Shown here: positions 2,138-45,252 of the stretch, one piece after another | Position numbering within the stretch: the first letter of the stretch is position 1 | Layout: every line of letters begins with the position of its first letter | Assembly (NCBI RefSeq): GCF_003330845.1 | Contig: NZ_CP026121.1 | Coordinates: 3,019,501 to 3,083,500 of the forward strand | Direction: 5' to 3' | Length of the DNA: 64,000 nucleotides | Origin: Streptomyces sp. Go-475 | GTDB lineage: Bacteria; Actinomycetota; Actinomycetes; Streptomycetales; Streptomycetaceae | The notes under the pieces: generated by a model | What the model saw: only the letters and a program-made list of their open reading frames with translations | The model's database searches: none | What the model was told of the DNA's origin: nothing | Translations under genes and position numbers: made by a program

Positions 2138-2200
2138 GTTCCGCGGACGTCGTCGTCAGGGTCCTTTCAGCTTGGCTGTTTTCTCGGGGAGTGGTGTGTG

Positions 2201-2515: not shown

Positions 2516-2577
2516 GTCTGCCGTAGTTGCTGGTCCTTTCGGTGTGGTTCGTTGATGGTTGGTGACGGGGGTTTTCG

Positions 2578-2964
2578 GTGCCCGGCTGGGATTTGAAGCC
2601 GCAGGGTATTTCGCATGTGCTGAAGACGACGGGTGATGCGGCGTCGAAGCTGGAGAAGTACGCGAAGGCGTTCGGTGAGCATCTGACGTCGGCGGCGTCC
2701 AGCGCGGGCACCGTCTCGGCCGAGGGTGGCGGTGAGGGCGGCGAGAAGGCGCAGGGCGGCCTGGTCGCTTTGGCGTTGTCGCAGTTCGCGGAGCACGCGA
2801 CGAAGGATCTGAAGTTCGTCGCGGCGCGGGCGGGCAAGTCGTTGCAGGGCGCGGTGGATGCCACCACGGCGTATCTGAACGGGGACGAGGAGATGGCGGC
2901 CGAGGCGCAGCGCAAGACGCTGCAGGCGCCTGTGGTGGATCTGCCGGGAGTCGGTAAGCGGTGA
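2578..2964 (+). CDS. Small T7SS-associated helical protein (DUF6507-like)
   Basis: This 128-residue protein starts [15 protein letters not shown], then has amphipathic helices interrupted by a glycine-rich loop (residues 47-60). The opening G-W-D-x-x-P-x-G is what I recall for a Streptomyces family catalogued as DUF6507, encoded immediately before LXG-like toxins; I could not verify that. Translation starts at GTG 2578 behind GGTGACGGGGG. Its TGA stop overlaps the GTG start of the toxin (GTGA), so synthesis of the two is probably coupled and stoichiometric. It is a good candidate for the targeting or adaptor factor of the toxin. Confidence 0.65.
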
Positions 2965-5522: not shown

Positions 5523-5541
5523 CATGGTTAGGGAGCCTGAC

Positions 5542-6348
5542 GTGAGCCGGTTCGACAGGTTGCTCGGCACGGACCTCGACGGTCGGCCGGTCGATGATGT
5601 GGAGGACGTCATCTACGACGCCCTCGAGGACCCGCGCCACCGAGAGCGGGTGCCCGGACTGGTCGAGTTGATGAACGATCGGGAAGCCCCTGAACGGGAG
5701 CGGTTTCTGGCTTGCGTCGCACTGACGACGTGGGCGGAGCCGGCGGGTTACGAGACCGTCATTGCGTGTGCACGCGATCCGAAGCGAGCGCCGTGGTACG
5801 ACATCCTCATCGACCGCAAGTTCTCCGTCGACAACACTTTCGCGCAGTTGTCGCTGGCCGTGGGTGACAGCGACGATCTTGCGCGGGAGAAGGGAACCTG
5901 GGAGCTGAGGACCGAGGCCTTTCGGGCGTTGGTGGGTATCGCGGACCGTGAGTATTTTGACGAGAAACTGGCGGATCTGCTGGACAGAGAGACGGTCGGA
6001 ACTCTCCTCGACGACATTCGGGAGGCTGTCGGCCGAGGTGTTACCCAGCTGGCTGAGCGCCGCCCCCAGAGCTTCGACCTGACCACCCAGCTCGTCGATC
6101 TCGCTGCGGCGGTGGCTACCGTCGACGGGCCCATGGCTCAACGCCTGGCTCAGAACGTCCTGAGCCAGGACACCAGCCCTCGTGCCCTCATCCACGCCGT
6201 GGCCATTGTGCGGCGTTCTGGAACGTCCGATGCCCGTGCGTTCGCGGAGTACCTGTCCAGTGTTGGGGACGACAATGTACGTGATCAGGTGCGTCAGGCG
6301 CTGATGTCCGATGACGACAAGAAGACCCAGACGCCGAATAACGGCTGA
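5542..6348 (+). CDS. Probable immunity protein of the upstream toxin, HEAT-like
   Basis: This 268-residue soluble, acidic, all-helical protein has repeating helix pairs (RERFLACVALTTWAEPAGYE; DDIREAVGRGVTQLAE) like HEAT/ARM-type immunity proteins. It has no signal peptide, as expected for a factor that protects the producer's cytoplasm. I place the start at GTG 5542 behind AGGGAG at 5530-5535 rather than at ATG 5524. The broken duplicate at 7167 keeps the same ribosome site (AGGAGGGAGCCTGA) and a TTG at the equivalent codon. It directly follows the toxin gene. A second intact homologue lies at 8146. The immunity role is inferred from position and duplication pattern. Confidence 0.7.
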   Translation: MSRFDRLLGTDLDGRPVDDVEDVIYDALEDPRHRERVPGLVELMNDREAPERERFLACVALTTWAEPAGYETVIACARDPKRAPWYDILIDRKFSVDNTFAQLSLAVGDSDDLAREKGTWELRTEAFRALVGIADREYFDEKLADLLDRETVGTLLDDIREAVGRGVTQLAERRPQSFDLTTQLVDLAAAVATVDGPMAQRLAQNVLSQDTSPRALIHAVAIVRRSGTSDARAFAEYLSSVGDDNVRDQVRQALMSDDDKKTQTPNNG

Positions 6349-6350
6349 CC

Positions 6351-7165
6351 ATGGAGCGGCAATGCGGCACTGCCCAGTCGGCCTGTGGGACGTGGGGCCG
6401 CGACGACGAGAGGGCTGATGCCCTGGCCCGCTGTCTTCGGGACTTGCTGACTGCTTATCGCGTACTGGCCACTCACAAGCTTGCGATGGATGCGCCCGTT
6501 GTTTATGTCTCGGTTTCTGAGGCCCGTAAAGTCGAACAGTCTTCTTTTCAAGGGAGAGCTTGGACGCGTATGCCGAGTGCTCCGGTGACATCGTGACGGG
6601 CGTTGGAGAGGAGATGTTCCGACAGGAGGCTCTGTTTCGGCTGGGGGCCTCTTCCTTCGCCGACTTCGTCACTGTCGACTTGGTGACGCACACGGACGTA
6701 TGGCTGCCGTACGACCTCAAGGGGCGGCACGCCGAGAACTACTTCAACGCCGATGGCTCTGCGTCGGACGTGTGGTCCAGCTTCGAAGTCCCCGCACGGT
6801 ACGACATCTTCATGCACGCTCCCGGCTTCGGACGTATCGGCTACCGGCGGACTGCTGAAGGTGAAGTCCGGTACGTGCCGGTCCACGGATCGCAAGGTGA
6901 GCTGCTCGGCTACCTGTGGGCCTCGGACGCAGAAAACGCGGCGAGCTTCGAGCCCCTGGACGTCGGCGACAATGCTTCCTACCATGCCGGGTTGGCCTGG
7001 CTGGAACGCCTGCGGTCCGCGCACGACCGCGGGTTGTCACCATCGGCGGCCCTGGCTGAGCTGTCGGCGACGTCTGACACGAGCGCAGGCCGAGTGGACC
7101 CGACGCGCGAACCACGGACCGCCGCCCTTGCTGTACTACGCGACCGATCGCAGGAGGGAGCCTGA
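6351..7165 (+). pseudogene. Decayed copy A of an unknown toxin-locus gene
   Basis: Two frames encode one protein family, the same as copy B at 9016. The first frame (6351-6596) carries TWGRDDERADALARCLRDL and LATHKLAMDAPVV. After position 6536 it goes out of frame because about 90 bp present in copy B is missing. The second frame (from 6560) carries CSGDIVTG, LFRLGASSFADFVTVDLVTH and GYLWASDAENAASFEPLD. Relative to copy B it also lacks a segment of about 40 codons after DLKGRH, but it keeps a 57-codon segment (ENYFNADGSASDVW to HGSQGEL) that copy B lacks. The family is unknown to me. Its place after an immunity gene suggests a toxin-locus accessory or immunity gene. Confidence 0.65.
6394..7164 (+). 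repeat. Direct repeat, copy A
   Basis: This DNA is repeated in the same orientation at 9050-9857. The best blocks are about 6630-6730 against 9381-9480 and 6907-7060 against 9602-9755, with only a few differences. Segments unique to each copy interrupt the match. The near identity points to a recent duplication or gene conversion. Confidence 0.8.
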
Positions 7166-7166
7166 A

Positions 7167-7355
7167 TTGGGCCGGTTCGACCGGTTGTCCGACACGGACT
7201 TCGATGGTCGGCCGGTCGATGACGTGGAGGAGGTCATCTACGACGCTCTCGATGCCCGCACCATCAGGAGCGGGTGCCTGGGCTCGTTGACGTAGGCCGA
7301 GCCGGCGGGTTACGAGACCGTCATTGCGTTGCGCCCGGGATCCGAAGCGGCGGCC
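7167..7355 (+). pseudogene. Truncated second copy of the immunity gene
   Basis: Behind the ribosome site AGGAGGGAG a TTG opens LGRFDRLSDTDFDGRPVDDV, closely matching the start of the immunity protein at 5542. The copy loses frame after about 33 codons and meets TAG at 7293. It also lacks about 66 bp present in the parent, then resumes homology (GAGCCGGCGGGTTACGAGAC) at about 7298-7352. Beyond that it runs into unrelated coding sequence. It cannot make a working immunity protein. The shared ribosome site and start codon position help fix the start of the intact gene. Confidence 0.75.
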
Positions 7356-7424
7356 CAGGCCGTCGTGAACGAGCTGGGTGTCCCGGTCAAGGCGGGACCG
7401 GATCCGCTGCAGAAAAGGCTTCTC

Positions 7425-7808
7425 ATGAAGATTGCGGATCACTTTCAAGAGCTATGGGCGCCTTCTTTTGGGATGCCCAGAGGGAGGGTGCGGGAATTTG
7501 TTGCGGATGCCGCATACGTGGATGAGCGAGAGATTGTCCAGTATTTGCTGGCCGGACATGACCTTTTCAGTGTCATGGGTTCCTCCGAGGACGTTCTGGG
7601 TTCCGGCGAGACAATCATGGGGGGCGACTCCATCTACTCGGATGGAGAATGGGTGTGGCGAGGAGATCTCTGGTTCTATGTGAGGAACCATCACGTCTGT
7701 CTGCCGAACGAGTTTTTGGAGCGAATCAGGTCCTTTGGCTACACCATGCCGGCTGAGGGCTTGTCGAGTCTCATGGAAATCGCCAAGGAAATCCGCCCTC
7801 GATTGTGA
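7425..7808 (+). CDS. Hypothetical immunity-like protein, low GC
   Basis: From ATG 7425 (AAAAGG six bases upstream) this encodes 127 residues. The motif D-G-E-W-V-W-R-G-D-L-W-F-Y-V is followed by H-x-V-C-L-P-N-E-F. Similar tryptophan-rich W-x-W-R-x-D-L-x-x-Y patterns occur in small proteins found after Streptomyces toxin genes, so an immunity role is plausible but unproven. The frame is open further upstream, to GTG 7365 or TTG 7329, where it fuses with the immunity-gene remnant, so the true start is uncertain. Base composition here is visibly lower in GC than neighbouring genes, which suggests recent acquisition. Confidence 0.55.
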   Translation: MKIADHFQELWAPSFGMPRGRVREFVADAAYVDEREIVQYLLAGHDLFSVMGSSEDVLGSGETIMGGDSIYSDGEWVWRGDLWFYVRNHHVCLPNEFLERIRSFGYTMPAEGLSSLMEIAKEIRPRL

Positions 7809-7865
7809 GATGACTGGCAGGGTGACCCAGCGGCTGGGTGGAACCGGTCGTGTCCCCGTCATCCT

Positions 7866-8153
7866 GTGGAACAGGGGTACCTGAAACAGGATGAAGAGCT
7901 GCTGTTCATCGGTGTCAAGCAGAATACCGTTATGGACCGTTTGGCGACCGCCCGGGTCACCTCGTACTCCGGCTTCTGTGCGCCCTTCCCGTCGCAGGCT
8001 TACATCGCGGCTGGCAAATTCAACGGTGTCGAGATCTGGCGCCTTGAACAGATCCAGCGGAGCATCAACGACGAGATCAACAAGGTGGCGGGCAAGAGCC
8101 GGCAAGGTGTACCGCCGGGTCATGGCGTTGCTCAATACTCGGAGAATGGTTGA
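7866..8153 (+). pseudogene. Orphan toxin-like C-terminal tail
   Basis: This 95-codon open segment has no convincing ribosome site and no N-terminal toxin part. Its end reads F-N-G-V-E-I-W-R-L-E-Q-I-Q-R-S-I-N-D-E-I-N. The large toxin has [21 protein letters not shown] in its warhead. I read it as the remains of an alternative toxin C-terminus, the usual silent cassette arrangement in polymorphic toxin loci. Its stop overlaps ATG 8146 of the next immunity-type gene, as in real toxin/immunity pairs. The similarity is short and was judged by eye. Confidence 0.45.
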
Positions 8154-8934
8154 TCAGCGGAGTAGTCCCGAAGGAGTGCGTCGACAGGCCACACCCGACG
8201 ACCAGGACACCGTGAAGCCGTCGGACAGCATGTCCGAGAGTCAGGCTTCGTGGGAACCGAGCCCCCGAGTCGCCCAGCTGCTCTTTGTGGACTTTGACGG
8301 AATGCCGTCGGATCCCGATGAAGTCATCAGCGATGGACTCGACGGCGGTTACAGGGACCGCTCCGAGGCCCTCAGGCAAGTCCTGCGAGACTCGGATGAG
8401 GACCCGGCAGGGCGTTTTCTGGCGTGTGTCGCGCTGACACGCTGGGGTGACGCGATCGGGTACGAAGAGGTGGTCGCTGCCGCTCATTCGCCCGGAGCAG
8501 TCGCTTGGCGGGGCGCCTCGTACGACAGAATGCATGGCGAGGACGACACTTTCGGAGTGCTCGCGGACGCTGTGGGAGACAGCATCGACATGGTGGACGA
8601 ACGCGGCACGGGTGCCGAGCGGGTAAGGGCCGCAGAGGCGTTGCTCGGAGTGGTCGACTCCGTTCAATTCGACCGGCACACCAACTCCCTGCTGCGTGAG
8701 GATCTCCTCGTGGCCTCACTTCCGGTGATCAAAGAAGCGGTGGCACGCGGCACTACGAGGTTGAAGCAAGAGCGCATCTCATACGATCTTGGCCTTCAGC
8801 TGGCCTTGACGATTACTGCGGCTCGTCGTATTGACGCAGACTGGGCTCTGAACGCGGCGCGCGGTCTTGTGGCGGCCAAGCCCGGTGAGCGTGGGTTGGA
8901 AGAACTGCGCGAGGATTTCCCGGAGTTCCGGTGA
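8146..8934 (+). CDS. Second immunity-family protein (paralogue of 5542)
   Basis: This intact protein of up to 262 residues aligns along its length with the immunity protein at 5542. Shared marks include LLFVDFDGMPSDPDEVI against the parent's LLGTDLDGRPVDDVEDVI, RFLACVALTRWGD, GYEEVV and AVGDS. It is helical and cytoplasmic. Several starts are possible: ATG 8146 overlaps the orphan toxin tail by 8 bp, GTG 8212 follows AGGA, and ATG 8230 lies closest to the conserved core. I keep 8146 as the outer limit. It would protect against the toxin variant whose tail precedes it, which is an inference from cassette logic. Confidence 0.65.
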   Translation: MVDQRSSPEGVRRQATPDDQDTVKPSDSMSESQASWEPSPRVAQLLFVDFDGMPSDPDEVISDGLDGGYRDRSEALRQVLRDSDEDPAGRFLACVALTRWGDAIGYEEVVAAAHSPGAVAWRGASYDRMHGEDDTFGVLADAVGDSIDMVDERGTGAERVRAAEALLGVVDSVQFDRHTNSLLREDLLVASLPVIKEAVARGTTRLKQERISYDLGLQLALTITAARRIDADWALNAARGLVAAKPGERGLEELREDFPEFR

Positions 8935-9015
8935 AGGGCTTGGCCATTGCAACTCAGGTTCAACGCGACCGCCGACGCATTGCGTACGACGCCGACATGC
9001 CCGTCGAGGAGGGTT

Positions 9016-9858
9016 GTGCATACTTCTACCCCCGTGGCCCACTGGACCTGGGGGCGTGACGACGAAACGGCTGACGCCTTGGTCCGCTGTCTTCGGGACT
9101 TGATGGCCGCTTATCGCGTACTGGCCACTCACAGGCTCGCGATGGATGCGCCCGTTGTCCATGTCTCGCTTTCTCAGGCCCGTAAGGCGAAGAGCTTCCT
9201 TTGACTGACCGCAACGGCTCGTGGGGCGGGAGAGGGGGACACTGCGGAAGCTGCAATACAGCTGGTTGATCAGATGAGGGCGGATCTCCGCGCCGGCGAG
9301 GTCGGTTCCGTGGACGCGTACGTCCAGTGCTCCGGCGACATCGTGACGGGCGCCGGAGGAGAGTTGGTCCGACAGGAGAACCTGTTTCGGCTGGGGGCCT
9401 CTTCCTTCGCCGACTTCGTCACTGTCGACTTGGTGACGCACACCGACGTATGGCTGCCGTACGACCTCAAGGGGCGGCACCGGCAAGAGGTCTACACGGC
9501 AAACGGCCCTCGCTTGGCGGCGGTGCTGCGCGACCTGTCCGAGGTTCTCGGGTCAGAGACGGATCCAGACGACTCGACGTACTTCGCCAAGCCCACCGAA
9601 ACGCTCGGCTACCTGTGGGCCTCAGACGCAGAGAACGCGGCGAGCTTCGAGCCCCTGGACGTCGGCGACAATGCTTCGTACCATGCCGGGTTGGCCTGGC
9701 TGGAGCGCCTGCGGTCCGCGCACGACCGGGGGTTGTCTCCGTCGGCGGCTCTGGCCGTGGTGTCGGCGACGGCTGATACGAGCGCAGGCAGGGTGGCTCC
9801 GGCGTGCGAACCGCGCACCGTCGCTCTTGCTGTCCTGCGCGACCGATCGCGGGGCTGA
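9016..9858 (+). pseudogene. Decayed copy B of the unknown toxin-locus gene
   Basis: GTG 9016, close behind GAGGAGGG, opens VHTSTPVAHWTWGRDDETAD. The frame continues to an in-frame TGA at 9202-9204 and then carries on in the same frame (LTATARGAGEGDTAEAAIQL, MRADLRAGEVGSVDAY) to 9858. Compared with copy A it keeps the linker and a 40-codon block (RQEVYTANGPRLAAVLRDL onward) but lacks A's 57-codon block before GYLWASDAENAASF. The ancestral protein probably contained both blocks. The downstream part, with ATG at 9274, could still be translated as 194 residues, but no ribosome site is seen. Confidence 0.65.
9050..9857 (+). repeat. Direct repeat, copy B
   Basis: This is the partner of 6394-7164, in the same orientation about 2.7 kb downstream. 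The two copies flank the truncated immunity copy, the immunity-like hypothetical gene, the orphan toxin tail and the second immunity gene. Recombination between them would delete that whole block. Confidence 0.8.
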
Positions 9859-29779: not shown

Positions 29780-29852
29780 TCCCGGCGTCCTGGGCGGCCT
29801 AGGCTCACCCCCATCGGAACCTCTGACTGAGTCAAGGACCGGGGTGGTGGCC

Positions 29853-30833
29853 ATGACCGTCCAGGACATCCGCTCCTTCAACCGCTTCTACACGAACGTC
29901 ATCGGCGCCCTCGACTACGGCCGTCAGCTGTACGCCCCCTACACCCTCACCGAGTCCCGGGTGATCTACGAGCTGGCCCACGCGCCGCGCACGGACGCCG
30001 CCGACCTGCGGGCCCAGTTGCACCTGGACGCCGGATACCTGAGCCGCATCCTGAACCGGTTCGAGGAGGACGGGCTGATCGAGCGCGGTCCGTCCGAGTC
30101 GGATCCGCGCCGTCGCCGGATCACGCTCACCACCCGCGGCCGGGAGGTAGCCGCGCTCCTCGACGAGCGGGCCCGGGAGTCGGTCGGGGCGCTGCTGGGC
30201 ACCGTACGGGCGGCGGACCGGCCGCGGCTGGCGGAGGCGCTGGGGACCGTCCGGGCGATTCTCGGCGGCGGCCGGGACCCGCGCCCCGAGGACGTCGTCC
30301 TGCGCGAGCCCGCCCCCGGCGACCTCGGCTGGATCGTGCAGCGCAACGCCGCGCTGTACGCCGCCGAGTACCGCTGGAACGCCGACTACGAGGGGCTGGT
30401 CGCGAGGATCGTCGCCGACTACGCCGAGGACCACGACCCCCACCTGGAGCGGACGTGGATCGCCGAGCTGGACGGCCGGCCGGTGGGGTGCGTGATGTGC
30501 GTACGGGACGAGGCGCCCGGGGCCGCCCGCCTGCGCCTGCTGCTCGTCGAGCCGGACGCGCGGGGGCTCGGCATCGGCGACCGGCTGGTGCAGGCCGTCG
30601 TCGACTTCGCCCGCGAGGCCGGCTACCGCGAGGTCGTCCTGTGGACCAACGACGTCCTCGCCGCGGCCCGCCGCATCTACCGGCGCCACGGCTTCGTCCT
30701 GGTGGCCGAGAAACCGCACCGCTCCTTCGGCCGGGACCTGACCGGCCAGGACTGGCGACTGGATCTTCACGCAACACCCGACCGGCGAAAGGGAGTCGCG
30801 GGCGGGGACGCCGGGTATGGTCCGTCGACATGA
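29853..30833 (+). CDS. MarR-type regulator fused to GNAT acetyltransferase
   Basis: This 326-residue protein has a MarR winged helix in residues 1-145 (ESRVIYELAHAPRTDAADLRAQL, DGLIERGPSESDPRRRRITL). A GNAT domain follows in residues 150-320, with the acetyl-CoA site in LLLVEPDARGLGIGDRLVQ and R-R-I-Y-R-R-H-G-F-V. The fusion is a known bifunctional architecture in actinobacteria and may regulate by acetylation or couple a metabolite signal to DNA binding. ATG 29853 was chosen; GTGs at 29844 and 29847 are alternatives. Its TGA overlaps the ATG of the TIM-barrel gene (ATGA). Confidence 0.85.
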   Translation: MTVQDIRSFNRFYTNVIGALDYGRQLYAPYTLTESRVIYELAHAPRTDAADLRAQLHLDAGYLSRILNRFEEDGLIERGPSESDPRRRRITLTTRGREVAALLDERARESVGALLGTVRAADRPRLAEALGTVRAILGGGRDPRPEDVVLREPAPGDLGWIVQRNAALYAAEYRWNADYEGLVARIVADYAEDHDPHLERTWIAELDGRPVGCVMCVRDEAPGAARLRLLLVEPDARGLGIGDRLVQAVVDFAREAGYREVVLWTNDVLAAARRIYRRHGFVLVAEKPHRSFGRDLTGQDWRLDLHATPDRRKGVAGGDAGYGPST

Positions 30834-31633
30834 AGCTGGCGTTCTCCACCCTCGGTGTCCCCGGCCTGCCCCTGACCGACGTACTGCGGCTCGCCAGTAC
30901 GCACGGCTATCACGGCGTCGAGTTGCGCACCCACCCCGAGGAGCCGGTCCACACCGGCCTCGATCCGGATCGGCGGGCCGAGGTGGCGGCCGAGTTCAAG
31001 GGGGCGGGCGTAGAGATCCTGGGTCTCGCGGGATACGCGCGGGTCGCCGCCCCGGGCGACGACGAGCCCGTCCTGGCCGAGATCCGCGCCCTCCTCGACC
31101 TGGCCCACGACCTCGGTGCCCCGTACGTCCGCGTCTTCCCCGGCGGCGACCTGGACGTCCAGACCCCTGAGGAGGCGGACGCGACGGCCGCCCGCCGCCT
31201 GGGTACGGCCGCCGAGTACGCGGGCGACCGCAACGTGCGCGTGCTCCTGGAGACCCACGACTCGCACCGCACCGCCGCCGACGCCATGCGCGTCCTCGGG
31301 CTCGTCGGCCATCGTCAGGTCGGCGCGCTCTGGGACGTCATGCACACCTGGCTGGGCGGTGAGCAGCCCTCGGAGACCTACGCGGCCCTCTCCCCCCATC
31401 TCGGCTACGTCCAGGTCAAGGACATCGCCTCCGCCGAGGACACGACCCCGCTGCCCCTCGGCGAGGGTGTCCTGCCCCTGGCCGAGTGCGTGGAAGTCCT
31501 CTCCCGGCACGGCTGGGACGGCTGGCTGTGCTGGGAGTACGAGAAGCGCTGGTACGAGGGCGCGGCGCCGCTGGCCGATCTGCTGGGCCCGGGGCGTGAG
31601 CACCTGAGCCGACTGCTCAACGAATCGGCGTAA
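30830..31633 (+). CDS. Sugar phosphate isomerase/epimerase (TIM barrel)
   Basis: This 267-residue xylose-isomerase-like barrel opens MKLAFSTLGVPGLPLTDVLRLA. Metal ligands are probable in VRVLLETHDSH (Glu), VGALWDVMHTW (Asp/His) and WDGWLCWEYEKRW (C-terminal Glu). It is a second, distant relative of the protein at 12912, with about 10 fewer residues and no operon partners of the sugar type. It is translationally coupled to the MarR-GNAT gene by ATGA, which suggests that regulator's ligand or target relates to this enzyme's substrate. Confidence 0.85.
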   Translation: MKLAFSTLGVPGLPLTDVLRLASTHGYHGVELRTHPEEPVHTGLDPDRRAEVAAEFKGAGVEILGLAGYARVAAPGDDEPVLAEIRALLDLAHDLGAPYVRVFPGGDLDVQTPEEADATAARRLGTAAEYAGDRNVRVLLETHDSHRTAADAMRVLGLVGHRQVGALWDVMHTWLGGEQPSETYAALSPHLGYVQVKDIASAEDTTPLPLGEGVLPLAECVEVLSRHGWDGWLCWEYEKRWYEGAAPLADLLGPGREHLSRLLNESA

Positions 31634-31808: not shown

Positions 31809-31919
31809 ATGCGTGCGTACGAGCGTCCGACGCTGACTGCGGTCGGCACTTTCCGCGCCACCGGCCTCGGCACGAACAGAGGGCCCGAGCGGCTCATCCG
31901 CCTGAGGTTCAGCCTGTGA
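31809..31919 (+). CDS. Lasso peptide precursor
   Basis: This 36-residue gene product begins MRAYERPTLTAVGTFRATG. The leader carries the lasso recognition motif Y4-x-x-P7-x-L9-x-x-x-G13-x-F15 and a Thr (T18) at -2 of the predicted cut. The predicted core is LGTNRGPERLIRLRFSL (residues 20-36), with a macrolactam from Leu1 to Glu8 (an eight-residue ring) and a nine-residue tail. Four arginines make it strongly cationic. ATG 31809 follows AAAGGGGG; an in-frame GTG at 31800 is possible. It lies 58 bp before the cyclase gene and opens the cluster. Leader and ring assignment rest on known lasso rules. Confidence 0.88.
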   Translation: MRAYERPTLTAVGTFRATGLGTNRGPERLIRLRFSL

Positions 31920-31977
31920 CGCGTCGGTCGTTCCCCCTGGGGGAGCGACCGGGCCCGGGAGCAAGGAGGGCGTCCAC

Positions 31978-33810
31978 GTGGACCGTTTCGCCGACCCCGA
32001 CGCGCTCCCGGGCTGGTTCGCCGCCCTGCCCGACCGTGCCGAAGCCGCCCCGGTCGGCGCCGCGCTGCGCCGCTGGGCCGTGCGGGAGGTCAGCCATGCG
32101 TCGGGGCGGCCCTGGCTGCTCGGCCGCTGGGACGACGGCGCCCTGACCGTCGGCGCGGCCGGGCCCTCCCGCGTCGCGGTGCTCGGTGAACACGCCGTCA
32201 CCGGCGCGGAGCTGAGCGCGGTCGCCGGGCGGCTGCGCACCGCCGCCGACAGCGACAGGGCGGTCGGTTCGTTCGCCGGGAGTTTCCATCTGGTCGCGTC
32301 CGCCGGCGGATGTGTACGCATTCAGGGCAGTGTCACCGGGCTGCGGCCCGTTTTCCATGCCCGCGTCGGTGATGTGGTGGTGGCCGGTGACCGGGCCGAT
32401 GTCCTCGCCCGGCTGCTCGACGCGCAACTCGACGAGCGGCTGCTGGCGGTGCGTCTGCTGAATTCGTTCGCGCTGCACCCGGTGGCGGGCCTGCCCGTGT
32501 GGCAGGGCGTCGCGGTGTTGCCGGGCGGCCACTGCCTGCTGCTCGACCGGGACGGCCGGGAGCGGCAGGTCCGGTGGTGGAGTCCGCCCGAGCCGGTCGT
32601 GCCGATGGCCGAGGGCGCCGCGAGGCTGCGGGAGGAGCTGGGTGCCGCCGTGGCGGCCCGGGTCCGGGGGCGTGAGCTGGTGAGCTGCGATCTGGGCGGG
32701 CTGGACTCCACCTCCGTGTGCGCCCTGGCGGCCGGCGGGAGCGCCCGGGTCGTCGCCTACACCGCCGACGGCCGTGATCCCATGAGCGACGACGTGGCCT
32801 GGGCCCGCCGTACCGTGGCCGGGCTGGACGGCGTCGAGCACCACGTCTTCGCCGGGGACGCGGTGCCGTTGGTCTACGACGGGCTGGACGAGGCGGACGA
32901 CCTGTTCGACGAGCCGTGCCCGGCCGTCGTGCATCGCGGCGGATGGCTGGTGATCCCGCGGTCCGCCGCGGCGCGCGGCTCACGGCTGCATCTGACCGGG
33001 TTCGGCGGGGACGAGCTGCTGGCGGGTTCGCCGGCGCATCTGCACGCGCTGCTGCGCAGCCACCCCCGCGTGGCGTGGCAGCGGGTGCGCGGGTTCGCCG
33101 CCCAGCGGCCCTGGTCGTACCGGCAGACGCTGCGGCAGTTGCGGGACGGCAGCCCCTACCGGGCCTGGCTCGCCCGGGTCGCGGAGCAGCTCACCGCCGT
33201 ACCGCCCCCGGAGGACACCCCGACCCTGGACTGGGGGATGCCGCCGCGGCTGCCGCCGTGGGCGACCGGGGACGCCGTCGCGGCCGTGCGGGACGTGATC
33301 CGCGACGCGGCCCGGACGGCGGAGCCGCTGGCCCCCACGCGCGGGCAGCACGTCGAGCTGGAGGCGATGCGGAGCACCTCGCGGATGGTCCGGCAGTTGG
33401 GGCAGATGGCCGCGCGGCTGGGGGTGGGCCTCGCCGCCCCGTACTACGACGACCGGGTCGTGGAGGCGGGCCTGGCGGTGCGGCCGCAGGACCGGGTCAC
33501 GCCCTGGCGGTACAAGCCGCTGATCGTCGAGGCCATGCGGGGTGTGGTGCCCGAGGAGAGCCTGTCCCGGCACACCAAGGACGAGGGCGCGCACGACGTG
33601 GAGGCCGGGCTGCGGGAGAACCGGGCCGGGCTGCTCGCCCTGTGCGAGGACTCGCGGCTGGCCCGGCTGGGCCTGGTCGACGCCGACGCCCTGCGCGAGG
33701 TGTGCCGCCGTCCGCTGCCGCCGTCGCTGCAGTTCGACGCCCTGTACCAGACGGTGGCGTGCGAGGTCTGGCTGCGCGCGCTGCAGGGCGCCGCGGCCGT
33801 ACCGTCCTGA
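31978..33810 (+). CDS. Lasso peptide macrolactam synthetase (asparagine synthase-like)
   Basis: This 610-residue protein resembles asparagine synthetase B. The N-terminal third is a degenerate glutaminase-like domain without the catalytic Cys. The rest is an ATP pyrophosphatase domain with a modified PP-loop, S-C-D-L-G-G-L-D-S-T-S near residues 236-246, and LTGFGGDELLAG. In lasso pathways this enzyme adenylates the Asp/Glu side chain of the precursor, here Glu8 of the core, and closes the ring on residue 1 within the folded peptide. GTG 31978 follows AAGGAGGG. It is the second gene of the cluster. Confidence 0.9.
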   Translation: MDRFADPDALPGWFAALPDRAEAAPVGAALRRWAVREVSHASGRPWLLGRWDDGALTVGAAGPSRVAVLGEHAVTGAELSAVAGRLRTAADSDRAVGSFAGSFHLVASAGGCVRIQGSVTGLRPVFHARVGDVVVAGDRADVLARLLDAQLDERLLAVRLLNSFALHPVAGLPVWQGVAVLPGGHCLLLDRDGRERQVRWWSPPEPVVPMAEGAARLREELGAAVAARVRGRELVSCDLGGLDSTSVCALAAGGSARVVAYTADGRDPMSDDVAWARRTVAGLDGVEHHVFAGDAVPLVYDGLDEADDLFDEPCPAVVHRGGWLVIPRSAAARGSRLHLTGFGGDELLAGSPAHLHALLRSHPRVAWQRVRGFAAQRPWSYRQTLRQLRDGSPYRAWLARVAEQLTAVPPPEDTPTLDWGMPPRLPPWATGDAVAAVRDVIRDAARTAEPLAPTRGQHVELEAMRSTSRMVRQLGQMAARLGVGLAAPYYDDRVVEAGLAVRPQDRVTPWRYKPLIVEAMRGVVPEESLSRHTKDEGAHDVEAGLRENRAGLLALCEDSRLARLGLVDADALREVCRRPLPPSLQFDALYQTVACEVWLRALQGAAAVPS

Positions 33811-33826
33811 GTCCGAAGGAGACGTC

Positions 33827-34117
33827 ATGACGCTCAAGCTGCGTGCGGGTGTGTACACCGCCGAGACCGAGTACGGGATCGCGCTGCTGGACGAGGACCG
33901 CGACCAGTACTGGACCCTCAACCCCACCGCCGCCGTCGTCGTGCGGGCCCTGCTGGACGGCGGGGGCGCCGAGGACGCCGTGCGGGAGCTGACCGCCGAG
34001 TACGAGGTGGACGCCGACAGCGCCGGGCGGGACGTCCGGGAACTGGTCGGCGAACTGCGGGCGGCGGGCCTGGTGGAGGAGGACACCCGGCGTGGCGTGC
34101 GCGGGCGGTCGTCATGA
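33827..34117 (+). CDS. Lasso peptide RRE protein (PqqD-like, B1)
   Basis: This 96-residue winged-helix protein is of PqqD type: GIALLDEDRDQYWTLNPTAAVVVRALL, then A-V-R-E-L-T-A-E-Y-E-V-D and LVGELRAAGLVE. It binds the YxxPxL leader motif of the precursor and delivers it to the peptidase and cyclase. ATG 33827 follows GAAGGAGA, 16 bp after the cyclase stop. Its TGA overlaps the ATG of the B2 peptidase (ATGA), as expected because B1 and B2 act as a complex. Confidence 0.9.
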   Translation: MTLKLRAGVYTAETEYGIALLDEDRDQYWTLNPTAAVVVRALLDGGGAEDAVRELTAEYEVDADSAGRDVRELVGELRAAGLVEEDTRRGVRGRSS

Positions 34118-34605
34118 GTTCGCCGGAGGTCGTCGCGCACGCGCCGCGTGCGGTGCCGCCGCTGCGGCGGCTGGAGGTGCGGCTGGTGGTGGCCGTAGCG
34201 CGGCTGCTGGCCACCCGGCGGCCCCGGCGCGTACGGACCGTGCTGGAGCGGCTCAGCCGGGGTGCCCGCCCGGCCACCGTCGAGGAGACGCGGGCGGCCC
34301 GGGACGCCGTGGTCGCCGTCAGCCTGGCGTGCGCGGGGCGGGAGGGCTGCCTGCCCCGGTCCCTGTCCACGGCCCTGCTGTGCCGGCTGCACGGCCGGTG
34401 GCCCACCTGGTGCGTGGGGGCGCGGCGGCTGCCGCCGTTCGGTGCGCACGCCTGGGTGGAGGCGGAGGGGGTGCCGGTGGGCGAGGAGTACCCGCCCGGC
34501 TACTTCCGGCCGCTGTTCACCGTGCCGTGCGCGGAGGACGGACACCGGGGCCGGTCGGCGGTGCGTGCCGGACGGGACGCGGACGCCGGGTCCCGGCTGC
34601 CGTGA
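34114..34605 (+). CDS. Lasso peptide leader peptidase (transglutaminase-like, B2)
   Basis: This 163-residue protein carries the cysteine-protease core of lasso B2 enzymes: Cys about 77 in REGCLPRSLSTALLCRL and His about 111 in FGAHAWVEAEG. The usual acidic third residue is not obvious; a glutamate in VGEEYP may serve. It removes the leader after T-G so the new Leu1 amine can be cyclised. The last 30 residues are basic and divergent. It overlaps the B1 gene by four bases and precedes the exporter gene by 28 bp. Confidence 0.9.
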   Translation: MSSPEVVAHAPRAVPPLRRLEVRLVVAVARLLATRRPRRVRTVLERLSRGARPATVEETRAARDAVVAVSLACAGREGCLPRSLSTALLCRLHGRWPTWCVGARRLPPFGAHAWVEAEGVPVGEEYPPGYFRPLFTVPCAEDGHRGRSAVRAGRDADAGSRLP

Positions 34606-34633
34606 GCGCCGGGCGTGGGAGGAAGCGTCAGCC

Positions 34634-36424
34634 GTGACTTCCTGGCGTGGGAGGAGGACCACGGGTAACCGGGTGGGTCCCCGGGACGTCCTGCGCCTGC
34701 TGCGCGGGCACCGCCGGCGGGTCGCCCTCGCCGTGCTGCTGACGCTGGGCGCGACGGGCCTCGGTCTCGCCCAGCCGCTGCTGGTGCGGCGGGTCATCGA
34801 GTCGGCCGCGTCCGGGAGCGCGATCGGGCCGGTCGTCGGTCTCCTCGTGGTGTTCTTCCTGGCCCAGGCGCTGGTGCAGGGCCTCGCCCAGTACGTCCTG
34901 GCCCGCACCGGCGAGGGTGTCGTGCTGGGCGTCCGGCTCGGGCTGATCCGGCATGTGCTGCGGCTGCCCATGGCCTCCTACGACCGGCATCGCGTCGGTG
35001 ACCTGATCTCCCGGGTCAGCACCGACAGCACCACGCTGCGGCTGCTGGTCGCCGAGGGGTTCACGGACGCGGTGACGGGCGGCATCGGACTGGCCGGGGT
35101 CGTGGCGCTGATGATCTGGCTGGACTGGACGATGTTCCTCGTCGTGCTGGCCGTGGTGACGCTGGGCACGGTCCTGGTCGGCTCGGTGCTGCGCGGCATC
35201 GCGTCGGCGTCCCTGGCCACGCAGCGGGCCACGGGGGCGATGACCGCCGACCTGGAGCGGGCGCTCGGCGCCATCCGCACCGTCCGGGCCAGCCGTGCCG
35301 AGCAGCGCGAGTCGGAGCGCATCGGCGGCGGGGCCAGGTCGGCGTACGCGGGGAGCGTGCGGATGGCGAAGCTGGACGCGGTGGTGGCCCCGGCCGTCGA
35401 ACTGGCCGTGAAGGGGTCGTTCATCGTCGTGCTGCTGATCGGCGGACTGCGGGTCGCCGACCGGCAGGGGTCGCTGGCGGATCTGGCCGCCTTCCTGCTG
35501 TACATGATCTATCTGGTGGGTCCGATCGGGACGGTGTTCCAGTCCGTCAGCACCATGCAGCAGGGCGTGGGCGCCTACCGCCGGATCACCGAGGTGCTGG
35601 CGCTGCCCACCGAGCGGGACGCGGCGCCCCGGCGGCCGGCGCCCCGCCCCGACGGTGCCGCCCGGCCGCCCCTGCTGGCGTTCCGGGACGTCTGGTTCGG
35701 CTACGAACCGGACCGGCCCGTGCTGCGCGGGGTGTCCTTCGAGGTGCCCGAGCACGCCCATGTCGCCCTGATCGGCAGCTCCGGCGTCGGAAAGTCGACC
35801 GTCTTCGCGCTCGTCGAGCGGTTCTACGACCCCGACCGCGGCCGGATCGAGTTCGACGGCCGGGACGTACGGGCGGTGGGCCGCGCGGCGCACCGGGCCC
35901 GGGTCGGCCTGGTGGAGCAGCAGGCGCCGGTGCTCTACGGCACGCTGCGGGAGAACCTGACGTACGCCGTTCCCGACGCGCCGCCCGAGGAGGTGGAGCG
36001 GGTCGTCGGCATGGTGCACCTGACGGACCTGGTGGCACGGCTGCCGCAGGGCCTGGACACCGACGCCGGGGAGCACGGCACGGCGCTGTCCGGCGGGGAG
36101 CGGCAGCGGATCGCCATCGCCCGGTCGCTGCTGGCCCGGCCCCGGCTGCTGTTGCTGGACGAGCCGACCGCGCACCTGGACGCCGTCAGTGAGGAGGCGT
36201 TGCGCCGGTCGATCCGCGAGGTGTCGGCGGAGTGCACCCTGCTGGTGATCGCCCACCGCATGTCGACGATCCGCGCCGCGGACCTGGTCCTGGTGCTCGA
36301 CGAGGGCCGCGTCGTCGCCGCGGGCAGTCACGCCCACCTGGCCGCCACCAGTGAGCACTACCGGCGCCTCGTCCACACCCGGCAGCCGGGGGAGGCCGGC
36401 GCGTCCCGTGCGGGGGCCGGGTGA
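34634..36424 (+). CDS. Lasso peptide ABC exporter (TMD-NBD half transporter)
   Basis: This 596-residue half transporter has six membrane helices in residues 30-320 and an ATPase domain in residues 350-585. The ATPase has Walker A G-S-S-G-V-G-K-S-T, signature L-S-G-G-E-R-Q-R, Walker B LLLLDEPTAHLD and the H-loop in LVIAHRMST. It should work as a homodimer and export the mature lasso peptide, which also gives self-protection. GTG 34634 follows GGAGGA. Position as last gene of the cluster is typical of the D gene. No isopeptidase or regulator gene is present. Confidence 0.9.
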   Translation: MTSWRGRRTTGNRVGPRDVLRLLRGHRRRVALAVLLTLGATGLGLAQPLLVRRVIESAASGSAIGPVVGLLVVFFLAQALVQGLAQYVLARTGEGVVLGVRLGLIRHVLRLPMASYDRHRVGDLISRVSTDSTTLRLLVAEGFTDAVTGGIGLAGVVALMIWLDWTMFLVVLAVVTLGTVLVGSVLRGIASASLATQRATGAMTADLERALGAIRTVRASRAEQRESERIGGGARSAYAGSVRMAKLDAVVAPAVELAVKGSFIVVLLIGGLRVADRQGSLADLAAFLLYMIYLVGPIGTVFQSVSTMQQGVGAYRRITEVLALPTERDAAPRRPAPRPDGAARPPLLAFRDVWFGYEPDRPVLRGVSFEVPEHAHVALIGSSGVGKSTVFALVERFYDPDRGRIEFDGRDVRAVGRAAHRARVGLVEQQAPVLYGTLRENLTYAVPDAPPEEVERVVGMVHLTDLVARLPQGLDTDAGEHGTALSGGERQRIAIARSLLARPRLLLLDEPTAHLDAVSEEALRRSIREVSAECTLLVIAHRMSTIRAADLVLVLDEGRVVAAGSHAHLAATSEHYRRLVHTRQPGEAGASRAGAG

Positions 36425-36803: not shown

Positions 36804-38648
36804 GTGCACGACACCGGCACGGGAAGCACGGGAAGCACGGGAAACACCGCACAGCCCTCCAGACGTACCGTCCTCGCCGCCACCGCGGGAGTCACCGCCG
36901 CCCTCGCGGCCGCCGGGCCCGCGTCCGCCGCCGACACCCCGGACGACCGCCGGCTCCGCGCCCTCGTCTCCCGCATGACGCCGGAGGAGAAGGTCGGGCA
37001 GCTCTTCGTGATGCGGGTCTACGGCCACTCCGCCACCGCCCCCGACCAGGCCGACATCGACGCCAACCTCAAGGAGATCGGGGTCCGTACGGCCGCCGAG
37101 CTGGTCGCGAAGTACCGGGTCGGCGGCATCATCTACTTCGCCTGGGCGCACAACACCCGCGAACCGCACCAGATCGCGGACCTGTCCAACGGCATCCAGA
37201 AGGCGTCCCTGGAGCTGCCGCGCGGGCTGCCGGTGCTCATCTCCACCGACCAGGAGCACGGGATCGTCGCCCGGGTGGGCAAACCCGCCACGCTGTTCCC
37301 GGGCGCCATGGCCGTGGGGGCGGGCGGGTCGCGGCCGGACGCCCGGACGCTGGGCCGGATCGCGGGCGCCGAGCTGCGCGCGATGGGCATCCGGCAGGAC
37401 TACTCCCCCGTCGCCGACGTGAACGTCAACCCGGCCAACCCGGTCATCGGCGTACGGTCCTTCGGCGCCGCACCGCGGGCGGTGGCCGCGCTGGTGGCCG
37501 CCGAGGTCGCCGGGTACCAGGGGTCCGGGGTCGCCGCGACCGCCAAGCACTTCCCCGGGCACGGGGACACCAACGTCGACAGCCACACCGGCTTCCCCAC
37601 CATCACGCACAGCCGGGAGCTGTGGGAGAAGCTGGACGCCCCGCCGTTCCGGGCCGCCATCGCCGCCGGCATCGACTCGATCATGACCGCGCACCTGATG
37701 GTCCCCGCCCTGGACGACTCCGGCGACCCGGCCACCCTCTCCCGCCCGATCCTCACCGGCATCCTGCGCGAGAAGCTCGGCTACGACGGGGTCGTGGTCA
37801 CCGACTCCCTCGGCATGGAGGGCGTGCGGACCAAGTACGGCGACGACCGGGTGCCGGTGCTCGCGCTGAAGGCGGGCGTGGACCAGCTCCTCAACCCGCC
37901 CGACCTGGACCTCGCGTGGAACGCCGTCCTGGCCGCCGTGCGCGGGGGCGAGCTGACCGAAGCCCGGCTGGACACCTCGGTCCTGCGGATCCTGCGGCTC
38001 AAGGCGAAGCTCGGGCTGTTCCGTTCGCCGTACGTCACCCACGGCGGCGTCGACCGGACCGTCGGGACCCGGGCGCATCTGGCGGCGGCCGACCGGATCG
38101 CCGAGCGGACGACCACACTGCTCGTCAACGAGGGGCGGCTGCTGCCGCTGTCCCGGCGCCGGTACCCCAAGGTGCTCGTGGTCGGGGCCGACCCGGCCTC
38201 GCCGACCGGGACGACCGGGCCGCCCACCGGCGTGCTCGCGGGCGCGCTGACCGAACTGGGCTTCGCGGCCACCGCCCTGCCGACCGGCACGGCACCCTCC
38301 GCGGCGACCGTCGCCCGGGCGGTCGCGGCGGCGCGGGACGCGGACGCGGTGGTGGCCGCCACCTACAACGTCGGCGCGGGCAGCGCCCAGCAGACACTGG
38401 TCGAGCAGCTCGCGGCGACCGGGCGGCCGGTCGTGGCGGTCGCGATCCGCAACCCGTACGACGTGGCCCGGCTGCCGTCCGCCGCGGCCTGCCTGGCCGC
38501 CTACTCCTGGACCGACGTCGAACTGCGGGCCGCCGCCCGGGTGATCGCCGGGCGGGTGGAGCCGCGCGGGAAGCTCCCGGTGGCGGTGCGGCGGGCGGAT
38601 GATCCGGAGCAGGTGCTGTACCCGATCGGGTACGGGCTGACGTACTAG
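36804..38648 (+). CDS. Tat-exported glycoside hydrolase family 3 (beta-N-acetylhexosaminidase type)
   Basis: This 614-residue protein starts with a twin-arginine signal (SRRTVLAATAGVTAALAAAGPASA, cut after residue about 46). The GH3 barrel has the NagZ-type acid/base loop K-H-F-P-G-H-G-D-T-N-V-D-S-H near residues 247-260 and the nucleophile Asp in VVVTDSLGMEGV near 333. A second alpha/beta domain ends in YPIGYGLTY. The KHFPGHG loop marks enzymes that cleave N-acetylglucosamine from cell-wall or chitin fragments. GTG 36804 follows GGAAGGAG. It acts outside the membrane. Confidence 0.9.
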   Translation: MHDTGTGSTGSTGNTAQPSRRTVLAATAGVTAALAAAGPASAADTPDDRRLRALVSRMTPEEKVGQLFVMRVYGHSATAPDQADIDANLKEIGVRTAAELVAKYRVGGIIYFAWAHNTREPHQIADLSNGIQKASLELPRGLPVLISTDQEHGIVARVGKPATLFPGAMAVGAGGSRPDARTLGRIAGAELRAMGIRQDYSPVADVNVNPANPVIGVRSFGAAPRAVAALVAAEVAGYQGSGVAATAKHFPGHGDTNVDSHTGFPTITHSRELWEKLDAPPFRAAIAAGIDSIMTAHLMVPALDDSGDPATLSRPILTGILREKLGYDGVVVTDSLGMEGVRTKYGDDRVPVLALKAGVDQLLNPPDLDLAWNAVLAAVRGGELTEARLDTSVLRILRLKAKLGLFRSPYVTHGGVDRTVGTRAHLAAADRIAERTTTLLVNEGRLLPLSRRRYPKVLVVGADPASPTGTTGPPTGVLAGALTELGFAATALPTGTAPSAATVARAVAAARDADAVVAATYNVGAGSAQQTLVEQLAATGRPVVAVAIRNPYDVARLPSAAACLAAYSWTDVELRAAARVIAGRVEPRGKLPVAVRRADDPEQVLYPIGYGLTY

Positions 38649-41532: not shown

Positions 41533-44500
41533 TCAGCGGGACGCGCCGACCGGCTCCTCCGGCTCGGCGGCGCCGATGAAGGTCCGCCACAGCTCCGCGT
41601 ACCGGCCGCCGCGCGCGAGCAGTTCCTCGTGCGTGCCGTCCTCGGCGACCCGGCCGTGGTCCATGACGACGACCCGGTCGGCGCGGGCGGCGGTGGTGAG
41701 CCGGTGGGCGACGACGAGGGTCGTACGGCGCCCGGCGAGGCGGTCGGTGGCCTGGTTGACCTGGGCCTCCGTGGCCAGGTCGAGGGCGGCCGTGGCCTCG
41801 TCGAGCAGCAGCACGTCCGGGTCGACCAGCTCGGCCCGGGCCAGGGCGATGAGCTGGCGCTGCCCGGCGGAGAGGTTGCGGCCGCGCTCGGCGACCTCGT
41901 GCAGGTAGCCGCCCTCCAGGGTGGCGATCATGTCGTGGGCGCCGACCGCCCGGGCCGCCGCCTCCACCTCGGCGTCGGTGGCGTCGGGGCGGCCGTAGGC
42001 GATGGCGTCGCGGACGGTGCCCTGGAAGAGGTACGCCTCCTGCGGGACGACCCCCAGACGGTGCCGGTACGAGGTGAGGTCCAGGGTGCGCAGATCGGCG
42101 CCGTCGACGGTGACCCGGCCGCCGGTCGGGTCGTAGAAGCGGGCCACGAGCTTGACCAGGGTCGACTTGCCCGCGCCGGTCTCGCCGACGAACGCGACGG
42201 TCTGCCCGGCCGGGATGCGCAGGTCGACCCCGCCGAGGGCCTCCTCGTCGTCGCCGTACGCGAAGTGCACGTCCTCGAAGGCGATCTCGCCGCGCAGGGA
42301 CAGGACCTCGCGGGGTTCGTCGGCGGACTTCGTCGACGTCGGCTCCCGCAGCAGCTCCTGGATGCGGCCCAGCGAGACGGACGCCTGCTGGTAGCCGTCG
42401 AAGACCTGGGAGAGCTGCTGCACGGGTGCGAAGAACAGGTCGATGTAGAGCAGGTACGCCACCAGGGAGCCGATGGCCAGCGTGCCGTCGTCGACCCGGG
42501 CTCCGCCCACGATCAGCACGGCCGCGGCCGCCACCGACGACAGGAACTGCACGAACGGGAAGTACACGGAGATCAGCCACTGGCCCCGGATGCGCGCCCG
42601 GCGGTAGCTGTCGCTGCGCTCGGCGAACCGCCGCCCGCCGTCCCGCTCGCGCCGGAACGCCTGCACGATCCGCAGCCCCGACACGGACTCCTGGAGGTCG
42701 GCGTTGACCACCGACACGCGCTCGCGCGCCAGTTCGTACGCCTTCACGCTCGCCCGGCGGAAGAAGTACGTGGCGATGATCAGCGGCGGCAGCGTCGCGA
42801 AGACGACCAGGGCGAGCTCGAGGTCGATGACCAGCAGGGCCACCATGATGCCGAAGAAGGTGACGACCGAGACGAAGGCGGTGACCAGGCCCGTCTGCAG
42901 GAACGTCGACAGCGCGTCGACGTCGGTCGTCATCCGGGTCATGATCCGGCCGGTCAGCTCGCGCTCGTAGTAGTCGAGCCCGAGGCGCTGGAGCTGGGCG
43001 AAGATCTTCAGGCGGAGCGCGTACAGGACCCGCTCGCCGGTGCGTCCGGTCATCCGGGTCTCGCCGACCTGGGCCGCCCACTGCACGGCCACCGTCAGCA
43101 GCGCGAGCAGGGACGCGGCCCACACGGCGCCGAGCGCGGCCTGCGTGACGCCGGAGTCGATGCCGTGCCGGATCAGCACCGGCAGCAGCAGGCCCATGCC
43201 CGCGTCGGTGGCGACCAGGGCCAGGCTGACCAGCAGCGGCAGCCCGAAGCCGCGCAGCAGCCGGCGCAGGCCGTAGGACTCCTCCGGCTGGACGGCCCGG
43301 GACTCGTCGACGTCCGGCACGTCGGTGGCCGGGGGCAGCGCCTCGACCTGCGCGAGCAGCTCGGGGGTGGCGGGGCTCTCGGCGAGGGCCAGGTCCTTGC
43401 GCTCGCGGTCACCGCTCCACAGCCGCGGGGTGACGCCGCGCTCGGCGTCGAACTCGGCGTCCAGCTCCTCCCGTACGGAGGTGTCCTCCTGGGGGCAGGC
43501 GGGCGGGGTGTGGCCCGGGGAGACCGCGCCCAGCTCGTCCGGGTCGGTGAGCAGGCGGCGGTAGAGGGCCGAGCGCTCCTGGAGTTCCTCGTGGGTGCCG
43601 ATGTCGGCGAGCCGGCCGCCGTCCAGGACGGCGATGCGGTCGGCGAGGTTCAGGGTGGAGCGGCGGTGGGCGATCAGCAGGGTCGTGCGGCCGCGCATGA
43701 CGCCCTTGAGCGCCTCGTGGATCTCGTGCTCGACGCGGGCGTCCACGGCGGAGGTGGCGTCGTCCAGGACCAGCAGGCGCGGGTCGCTGAGGATCGCGCG
43801 GGCCAGGGCGACGCGCTGGCGCTGGCCGCCGGAGAGAGTGAGGCCGTGCTCGCCGACGGTGGTGTCGTAGCCGTCGGGCAGCTCGGCGATGAACCGGTCC
43901 GCCTGGGCGGCGCGGGCGGCCTTCTCGATCTCCTCCTGGGTGGCGTCCGGGCGGCCGTAGGCGATGTTGTTGCGGACGGTGTCGGAGAAGAGGAAGGAGT
44001 CCTCCGGGACCAGTCCGATCGCGGCCCGCAGCGACTCCAACGTCAGTTCGCGCACGTCGTGCCCGCCGACCAGGACGGCACCGCGGCTGACGTCGTAGAA
44101 GCGCGGCAGGAGCAGGGAGACGGTGGACTTGCCGGAGCCGGAGGAGCCGACGACGGCGAGGGTCTCGCCGGGGCGGATCTCGAAGGAGAGCCCGTCGAGG
44201 ACCGGGCGGCCGTCCTCGTAGCCGAAGGAGACGTCGTCGAACTCGACGGTCGCGGGCGCGTCGGCGGGCAGCTCCTTGGTGCCGTCGGTCAGGGACGGCT
44301 CGGTGTCGATCAGCTCCAGGACCCGCTCGGTGCCGGCGCGGGCCTGCTGGCCGACGGTGAGCACCATGGCCAGCATGCGGACCGGGCCGACCAGCTGGGC
44401 GAGGTAGGTGGAGAAGGCGACGAACGTGCCGAGCGTGATGTGCCCGCGCACCGCCAGCCAGCCGCCGAGCGCCAGCATCGCCACCTGGCCGAGGGCGGGC

Positions 44501-45252
44501 ACGGACTGCAGGGCCGGGGTGTAGACGGAGTTCAGGCGGATGGTGCGCAGCCGGCCCGCGAAGAGCCTGCGGCTGACGTCCCGGAGCTTGCCGGTCTCCT
44601 GCTCCTCCTGCCCGAAGCCCTTCACCACGCGCACGCCGCTGACGGCCCCGTCGACCACGCCCGCGACGGCGGCGGCCTGGGCCTGGGCGTACCAGGTGGA
44701 GGGGTGCAGCCGGGTGCGGCTGCGCTTGGCGATCCACCACAGGGCGGGGGCCACGGCCAGGGCGACCAGGGTGAGCGGGACGGACAGCCACGCCATGATC
44801 ACCAGGGAGATCAGGAAGAGCATGAAGTTCCCGATGGTCATCGGGAGCATGAAGAGCAGGCCCTGGATCAGCTGGAGGTCGCTGGTGGCGCGGCCGACGA
44901 CCTGGCCGGTGGACAGCTCGTCCTGGCGGCGGCCGTCGAGCCGGGTGATCGTGCCGAACATCTCCGTCCGCAGGTCGTGCTGGACGTCGAGGGCGAGACG
45001 GCCGCCGTAGTAGCGGCGGATGTACGTGAGGACGTAGACGGCCAGGGCGGCGGCGACGAGGAGACCGGCCCAGGTGGTCATGGACCTGGTGTGCTCGGTG
45101 ATGACGTCGTCGATGATCACCTTCGTGATCAGCGGGACGAGGGCCATCACGGCCATGCCGGCGAGGGAGGACCCGAGGGCGAGTACGACGTCCTTGGGGT
45201 GGCGCCACGCGTACGCCCACAGCCGTCGTGCCCATCCCCGTTTCGGTGTCAC
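41533..45252 (-). CDS. Fused full-length ABC exporter (TMD-NBD-TMD-NBD)
   Basis: This 1,239-residue protein is two multidrug-type half transporters in one chain. NBD1 has Walker [10 protein letters not shown] near 367, signature LSGGQRQR and Walker [16 protein letters not shown]2 has G-E-T-G-A-G-K-S-T near 1024, signature LSAGQRQL and [15 protein letters not shown]1 carries Asp where the catalytic Glu should be, so one composite ATP site looks degenerate, as in heterodimeric exporters. An acidic linker joins the halves (residues about 590-680). GTG 45252 follows AGGAAGG. Substrates are likely drugs or lipids. Confidence 0.92.

Follow-up and report, generated by a model that had tools for sequence, protein, structure and literature searches.

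This locus raises the question of which lasso peptide lineage its product would belong to, and what is to be made of a cyclase lacking one residue of its ATP-binding pyrophosphate loop (PP-loop). The locus lies in a 64,000-nucleotide stretch of Streptomyces sp. Go-475 contig NZ_CP026121.1 (hereafter the window), corresponding to 3.02-3.08 Mb of the 8.57 Mb single-contig genome. Five plus-strand genes in the order A-C-B1-B2-D encode a precursor, a cyclase, a RiPP recognition element (RRE), a leader peptidase and an ATP-binding cassette (ABC) exporter (Table 1). The genes, the conservation of the core peptide, the cyclase lineage and the short loop are all known from sequence, and from these it is very probable that the window carries every gene needed for a class II lasso peptide, with a cyclase of the lagmysin lineage.

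Class II lasso clusters are recognised by a YxxPxL leader with Thr at position -2, by adjacent genes for cyclase, RRE and leader peptidase, and by a core having an acidic residue at one of positions 7-9 and no Cys. All of these features are present here, the acidic residue of the core LGTNRGPERLIRLRFSL being Glu8 and the leader motif agreeing with that given in the available part of PMC6856326. The ATG of gene A, at 31809, is preceded by a ribosome-binding stretch (GGAAAGGGGG) and the stop codon occupies 31917-31919. Precursor A scores 26.7 bits against Pfam DUF5972 (cut-off 22.6) and 19.3 against NCBIfam lasso_leader_L3 (cut-off 19), B1 108 bits against lasso_PqqD_Strm (cut-off 70), B2 123 bits against lasso_biosyn_B2 (cut-off 33) and C 135.5 bits against Asn_synthase of Pfam. 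The five-gene set proposed in an earlier note on this DNA is confirmed, and the cluster end that it gave, 36424, is exact. Its core boundary also holds, with Thr(-2)-Gly(-1), constant in a five-sequence alignment (A2), immediately before Leu1.

For this product we infer cleavage, ring closure, threading and export as follows. B1 would bind the YxxPxL leader and B2 would cleave it after Thr-Gly; C would adenylate Glu8 and couple it to the Leu1 amine; the eight-residue ring would trap the tail RLIRLRFSL; and D would export the finished peptide, for which a monoisotopic mass of 1979.154 Da and a net charge of about +3 were computed. Comparison of the 12 intact cores of this type (that of the window plus 11) shows L1, G2, R5, G6, P7, E8, F15 and S16 to be invariant, with Arg (9/12) or Lys (3/12) at position 9 and Leu in 11 of the 12 at position 17. 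Glu8 is the sole acidic residue at positions 7-9 in every one of them, a conservation that supports the Leu1-Glu8 ring predicted in the earlier note, as the cationic tail named there is also supported. The constancy of the ring and tail-end residues suggests a constant target for these peptides.

The PP-loop of C, DL-GGLDS, is a residue shorter than is usual. Of 91 cyclases tried, 88 could be aligned over the loop (three had no match covering it, and ten rows are second copies). It is one residue short in all 41 cyclases found beside precursors with a YERPTL leader, mostly as DL-GGLDS but also as GGVDS, GGFDT, GGLES, SGLDS and AGLDS, and full-length in all 47 remaining cyclases, mostly as DLSGGxDS. 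A tree was calculated from 53 near full-length rows, with the PP-loop columns retained and the long-branch rows L062, L063 and L087, as well as shorter or unplaced rows, left out. There, 29 short-loop cyclases, including those of the window and of lagmysin, lie on one side of a branch supported at 100/100, and all 29 members of this clade lack one residue of SGGxDS. The same split receives only 62/64 in a 52-row tree that includes L062, L063 and L087 and omits lagmysin and two citrulassin rows.

Lagmysin was isolated as a product. In a set of 392 genomes of the genus, to which the window's own belongs, its tail pattern was seen in four, two of which encode exactly LAGQGSPDLLGGHSLL and two LAGTGSPDLLGGHSLL; all four accompanying cyclases have the short loop GGVDS. 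Since a short loop also accompanies the exact lagmysin core, it probably does not prevent cyclase activity. In an AlphaFold model of C (mean predicted local distance difference test score, pLDDT, 91.2) the PP-loop lies inside a confident stretch. The best solved matches found by Foldseek, TsnB9, beta-lactam synthetase and carbapenam synthetase, have the asparagine-synthetase/beta-lactam-synthetase fold, with template modelling scores (TM-scores) by query length of 0.63 for TsnB9 and about 0.45-0.53 for the next matches. Using phmmer, neither C (E 0.01) nor B2 (E 0.1) matched any solved structure. A profile search with C reached beta-lactam synthetase and a hydroxyamidotransferase, both one residue longer at the loop, and a profile alignment sets the serine of SGG in beta-lactam synthetase against a gap. 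According to the available part of a 2026 review (PMC13352647), no lasso cyclase has a crystal structure, and our literature search found no paper treating lasso peptide, cyclase and PP-loop together, although other wordings would escape it. The ATP PP-loop is full-length in every aligned cyclase outside the group, yet one of its residues can be lost in the lineage to which the lagmysin clusters belong; the short-loop clade is thereby a test case supplied by nature for work on how lasso cyclases act and can be engineered.

Precursor matches at E 0.01 were obtained in 40 of the 392 genus genomes. The 30 loci returned, in which precursors could be read, comprise five of the window type, one of an FWFF type, 19 of the citrulassin type and five of other YERPTL types; precursors of matching genomes without a returned locus are unread in this count, and the window type is present in at least five of the 392 genomes, its own included. 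As the same precursor type is found in other genomes with the same gene order, the window cluster is not a chance arrangement. A scan of a collection of 84,980 species with alignment A2 gave 30 loci, some of them the same genomic places as loci of the genus set (e.g. L006 and L037 in S. cyaneochromogenes): 12 belong to the window type (11 intact, one frameshifted), six are WFFRR-tailed and 12 are others. Hosts of the window type are Streptomyces, Actinomadura macrotermitis and three uncultured actinobacterial bins. Eleven of the 12 loci agree in gene order and strand; in L044 the best exporter match lies upstream. The Actinomadura cyclase sits next to that of Streptomyces sp. CB03234 in the 53-row tree with support of 100/99, a pairing that suggests transfer between genera. 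Closest to the window is S. lomondensis (L046, 8001-8107), whose C, B1, B2 and D proteins are 90-95% identical; as the frameshifted locus, it was left out of the comparison of 12 cores. The window cluster defines a conserved lasso family with the ring motif RGPE and the tail end FSL, present in Streptomyces, Actinomadura and uncultured actinobacteria.

Cores of some other short-loop relatives (L053, L058, L061 and L064, from 8001, and L021, the same place as L061), for example MALKRTGPPDFLGQHSILR and KPFRKGKGPPDIVIKGNLL, are of a different kind. If these precursors are cut after Thr-Gly, their sole acidic residue falls at position 10 or 11 and not at the usual 7-9, so that either the ring is larger or a different cleavage rule applies.

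Several observations weigh against a complete and functioning cluster of the lagmysin lineage. Cyclase C remains under the NCBIfam lasso cut-offs (272.5 against 300 for the albusnodin/ikarugamycin model, 52 against 525 for lass_lactam_cya), although, despite these scores, it falls in one tree with the lagmysin and citrulassin cyclases. The cluster is known from its genes, and the role that its product would most likely have, narrow-spectrum antibacterial or signalling, is predicted from the lasso class. A single base is deleted from the core-coding part of the S. lomondensis precursor, through decay or an assembly error, and in S. africanus the cluster is broken; the family may therefore be decaying in some lineages. 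Because C also lacks a residue in an ATP motif that is usually constant, it might be argued that the window cluster too is decaying or silent, with a cyclase inactivated by its short loop. We consider this highly improbable, since the short loop is fixed across a whole clade with conserved cores, including the two clusters with the exact lagmysin core, and since all five genes of the window have undisrupted reading frames. We give equally little credence to a ring that closes elsewhere or a core that starts at another residue: cleavage and ring are predicted, and Asp4 also occurs in two of the 12 cores, but the constant Thr-Gly of the five-sequence alignment and the position of Glu8 in all the intact cores both speak for the Leu1-Glu8 ring.

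A further question concerns Arg9. In citrulassins this residue is deiminated by a protein-arginine deiminase (PAD) encoded outside the cluster, as described in the available parts of PMC12971885 and PMC8498205. In the window core Arg9 stands beside the ring, and the genome contains two PAD genes (PF03068; L110, 5870-7708, and L111, 4859-7132, near 30 kb and 101 kb of contig C1). No citrulassin precursor was found in it at E 1, the only match being the window precursor. The first PAD aligns with human PAD3 through the stretches WxQD, VGHVDEF and EVHCGTN, which we take to be those holding the human catalytic residues. With two PADs and no citrulassin in the genome, citrullination of Arg9 in the window peptide is possible; the Lys9 of three relatives means that deimination is not a family-wide need.

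PADs occur in 66 of the 392 genus genomes and in nine of 18 named relatives; of those 18, seven have a citrulassin. They are commoner in genomes assigned a citrulassin (12/30 versus 54/362, p 0.0014), these assignments being by sequence in 19 genomes, by separate confirmation in three and by row pattern in eight. Among the eight Streptomyces bearing the window family but no citrulassin (its own and seven named), six have a PAD match compared with 53/361 in the background (p 0.0003), which retains broken matches and one family genome. Leaving out the sister species and the broken cluster gives 4/6 (p 0.006) and counting only unbroken PAD matches, two PADs being split, gives 4/8 (p 0.02); both cuts together would leave 2/6. 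When Actinomadura and the three uncultured bins are included, PADs are present in five of 11 named relatives without citrulassin. As the genomes are related, the labels partly by row pattern and two PADs split, this association is a hint only. The whole proposition, that Arg9 is deiminated by a PAD of the same genome to give a citrulline-containing lasso peptide that is not a citrulassin, its ring closed by a cyclase from a clade whose contracted PP-loop still binds ATP, appears unlikely to us as it stands, but the PAD question allows one to ask directly if lasso peptides other than citrulassins are deiminated.

Citrulassin membership was considered first because the core has Leu1, Arg9 and an acidic residue at position 8, and the earlier note had likewise seen a citrulassin-like shape. 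The three residues do match the citrulassins in the available part of PMC12971885 and, with two PAD genes at hand, the peptide might be a true citrulassin variant of the same lineage, with an Arg9 that a PAD from another part of the genome deiminates. This seems very improbable: the window cyclase lies outside the citrulassin clade, on the lagmysin side of the branch supported at 100/100; citrulassin cyclases retain SGGLDS; and the core has Glu8 in place of Asp8, FSL in place of an SKN tail and, in three of the 12 intact cases, Lys9. The tree refutes a citrulassin lineage, membership was rejected on tree and tail, and the citrulassin resemblance is one of shape. A cluster of the lagmysin lineage is the reading we retain.

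Table 1. Features of the lasso peptide cluster and its borders (window coordinates).
Feature	Position	Strand	Basis or remark
Left flank: sugar-phosphate isomerase-like gene, border of insertion site	30830..31633	+	Named by sequence reading, not family search
Lasso precursor gene A, 36 amino acids, MRAYERPTLTAVGTFRATG followed by LGTNRGPERLIRLRFSL	31809..31919	+	DUF5972, lasso_leader_L3, 11 intact orthologues
Leader peptide, 19 amino acids, YxxPxL, Thr -2, Gly -1	31809..31865	+	Invariant residues in five-sequence alignment A2
Core peptide LGTNRGPERLIRLRFSL, predicted ring Leu1-Glu8	31866..31916	+	E8 in 12/12 intact cores
Lasso cyclase C, asparagine-synthetase fold, 610 amino acids	31978..33810	+	Asn_synthase match, AlphaFold, Foldseek
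Shortened PP-loop codons, D238-L-G-G-L-D-S244	32689..32709	+	Other lasso cyclases have DLSGGxDS, one residue longer
B1, PqqD-like RRE, predicted leader binder	33827..34117	+	NF033530, 108 bits
B2, leader peptidase, transglutaminase-like	34114..34605	+	NF033537, 123 bits; PF13471
D, ABC exporter (ABC_membrane + ABC_tran)	34634..36424, start possibly 34673	+	PF00664, PF00005
Right flank: GH3-type glycosidase gene, border of insertion site	36807..38648	+	Named by sequence reading

Across the relatives, the lasso cluster occupies at least three chromosomal settings, whose isomerase-like, GH3, arg and era-like genes are presumably as we have named them from our own reading of the sequence. In the first, shared by the window, S. 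lomondensis and S. calvus (with two extra genes between exporter and GH3), it extends from the isomerase-like gene to the GH3 gene; in S. regalis an isomerase-like gene is downstream of the exporter. In Streptomyces L038, L042 and L043 the cluster stands between argG/argH and argR/argD/argB, which is the second setting; the third, in L048-L050, adjoins an era-like GTPase gene. Of 61 genus genomes, 51 gave a match to the isomerase-like gene, and 30 loci were returned. In L134, L143, L144 and L147 a GH3 gene is near it and points the same way, the stretch containing no lasso cyclase; in L140 the GH3 gene points the opposite way. Apart from the window's own locus, the remaining 24 gave no GH3 match in the up to 1.5 kb examined on that side. 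Four relatives having both flanks close together without lasso genes suggests that the cluster is a cassette gained at this site in the window's lineage.

A MarR-GNAT gene at 29844-30833 was considered as an acetyltransferase self-protection (immunity) gene. This was dropped because, among the 30 collection loci, it was matched only in S. lomondensis, and because it also adjoins the isomerase-like gene in loci showing no lasso cyclase within the examined stretch. As to shared tailoring genes, beyond C, B1, B2 and D no gene group was present in more than four of 19 loci (the window and L035-L052), as delimited by a home-made gene caller whose size limit excludes precursor A, and the recurring extra groups look like chromosomal neighbours. 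Elsewhere in the window, 1811-9858 encodes several small proteins in a row and one of 853 residues, then two similar copies of a protein of about 200 residues (6560-7165 and 9274-9858). Four proteins tested had no Pfam match; the region is possibly a locus for a secreted polymorphic protein whose ends are duplicated. On the minus strand, 41533-45156 encodes a 1207-residue protein with two ABC_membrane and two ABC_tran stretches in one chain.

Among known systems lagmysin, tabulated as a class II lasso peptide of sequence LAGQGSPDLLGGHSLL in the available part of PMC12427821, is the nearest. It shares with the window a leader YERPTL...TG, Leu1, Pro7, an acidic residue 8, the cyclase clade and the short PP-loop. 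It differs in having Asp8, not Glu8, and a Gly-rich tail, LLGGHSLL, in contrast to the cationic one of the window, and cyclase identity to C is about 51-54% over the aligned region. As the window tail is RLIRLRFSL and not of the lagmysin type DLLGGxxLL, the window peptide is of the lagmysin lineage but not a lagmysin. Precursors of the [LI]GF[RK][AD]GPER-[FY]WFFRR[RK]FF type (S. viridochromogenes and others, L047-L052) have the same leader and GPER ring motif, and the four of their cyclases that entered the tree (L047-L050) branch from inside the window family, but their cores have 18 residues and an aromatic, arginine-rich tail; we know of no product for them. Among these loci L052 is broken and the cyclase match of L051 covers only 40% in one stretch.

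Citrulassins (LLxxxGNDRLILSKN) also share the YxxPxL leader and, in two clusters compared, the order cyclase-RRE-peptidase-exporter; the differences are those set out above. The same chromosome carries a second lasso cluster (L002, C1:1391401-1396173), whose core, GFIGWGNDIFGHYSGDF, is the anantin sequence as tabulated in PMC12427821; its cyclase has a full SGGMDS loop and is 44% identical to C. Lassomycin and lariocidin, sequences of which appear in the same part of that source, invite comparison for their cationic character, but no sequence kinship with the window core was seen. The earlier note's suggestion of an undescribed peptide holds in so far as none of eight core or leader strings was found in the 5.39 million papers searched, genome-mining supplements being outside that search; an earlier computational listing in lasso catalogues is likely. 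Set beside these systems, the window peptide would be a new member of the lagmysin lineage with its own core sequence, a short PP-loop in its cyclase and possible citrullination of Arg9.

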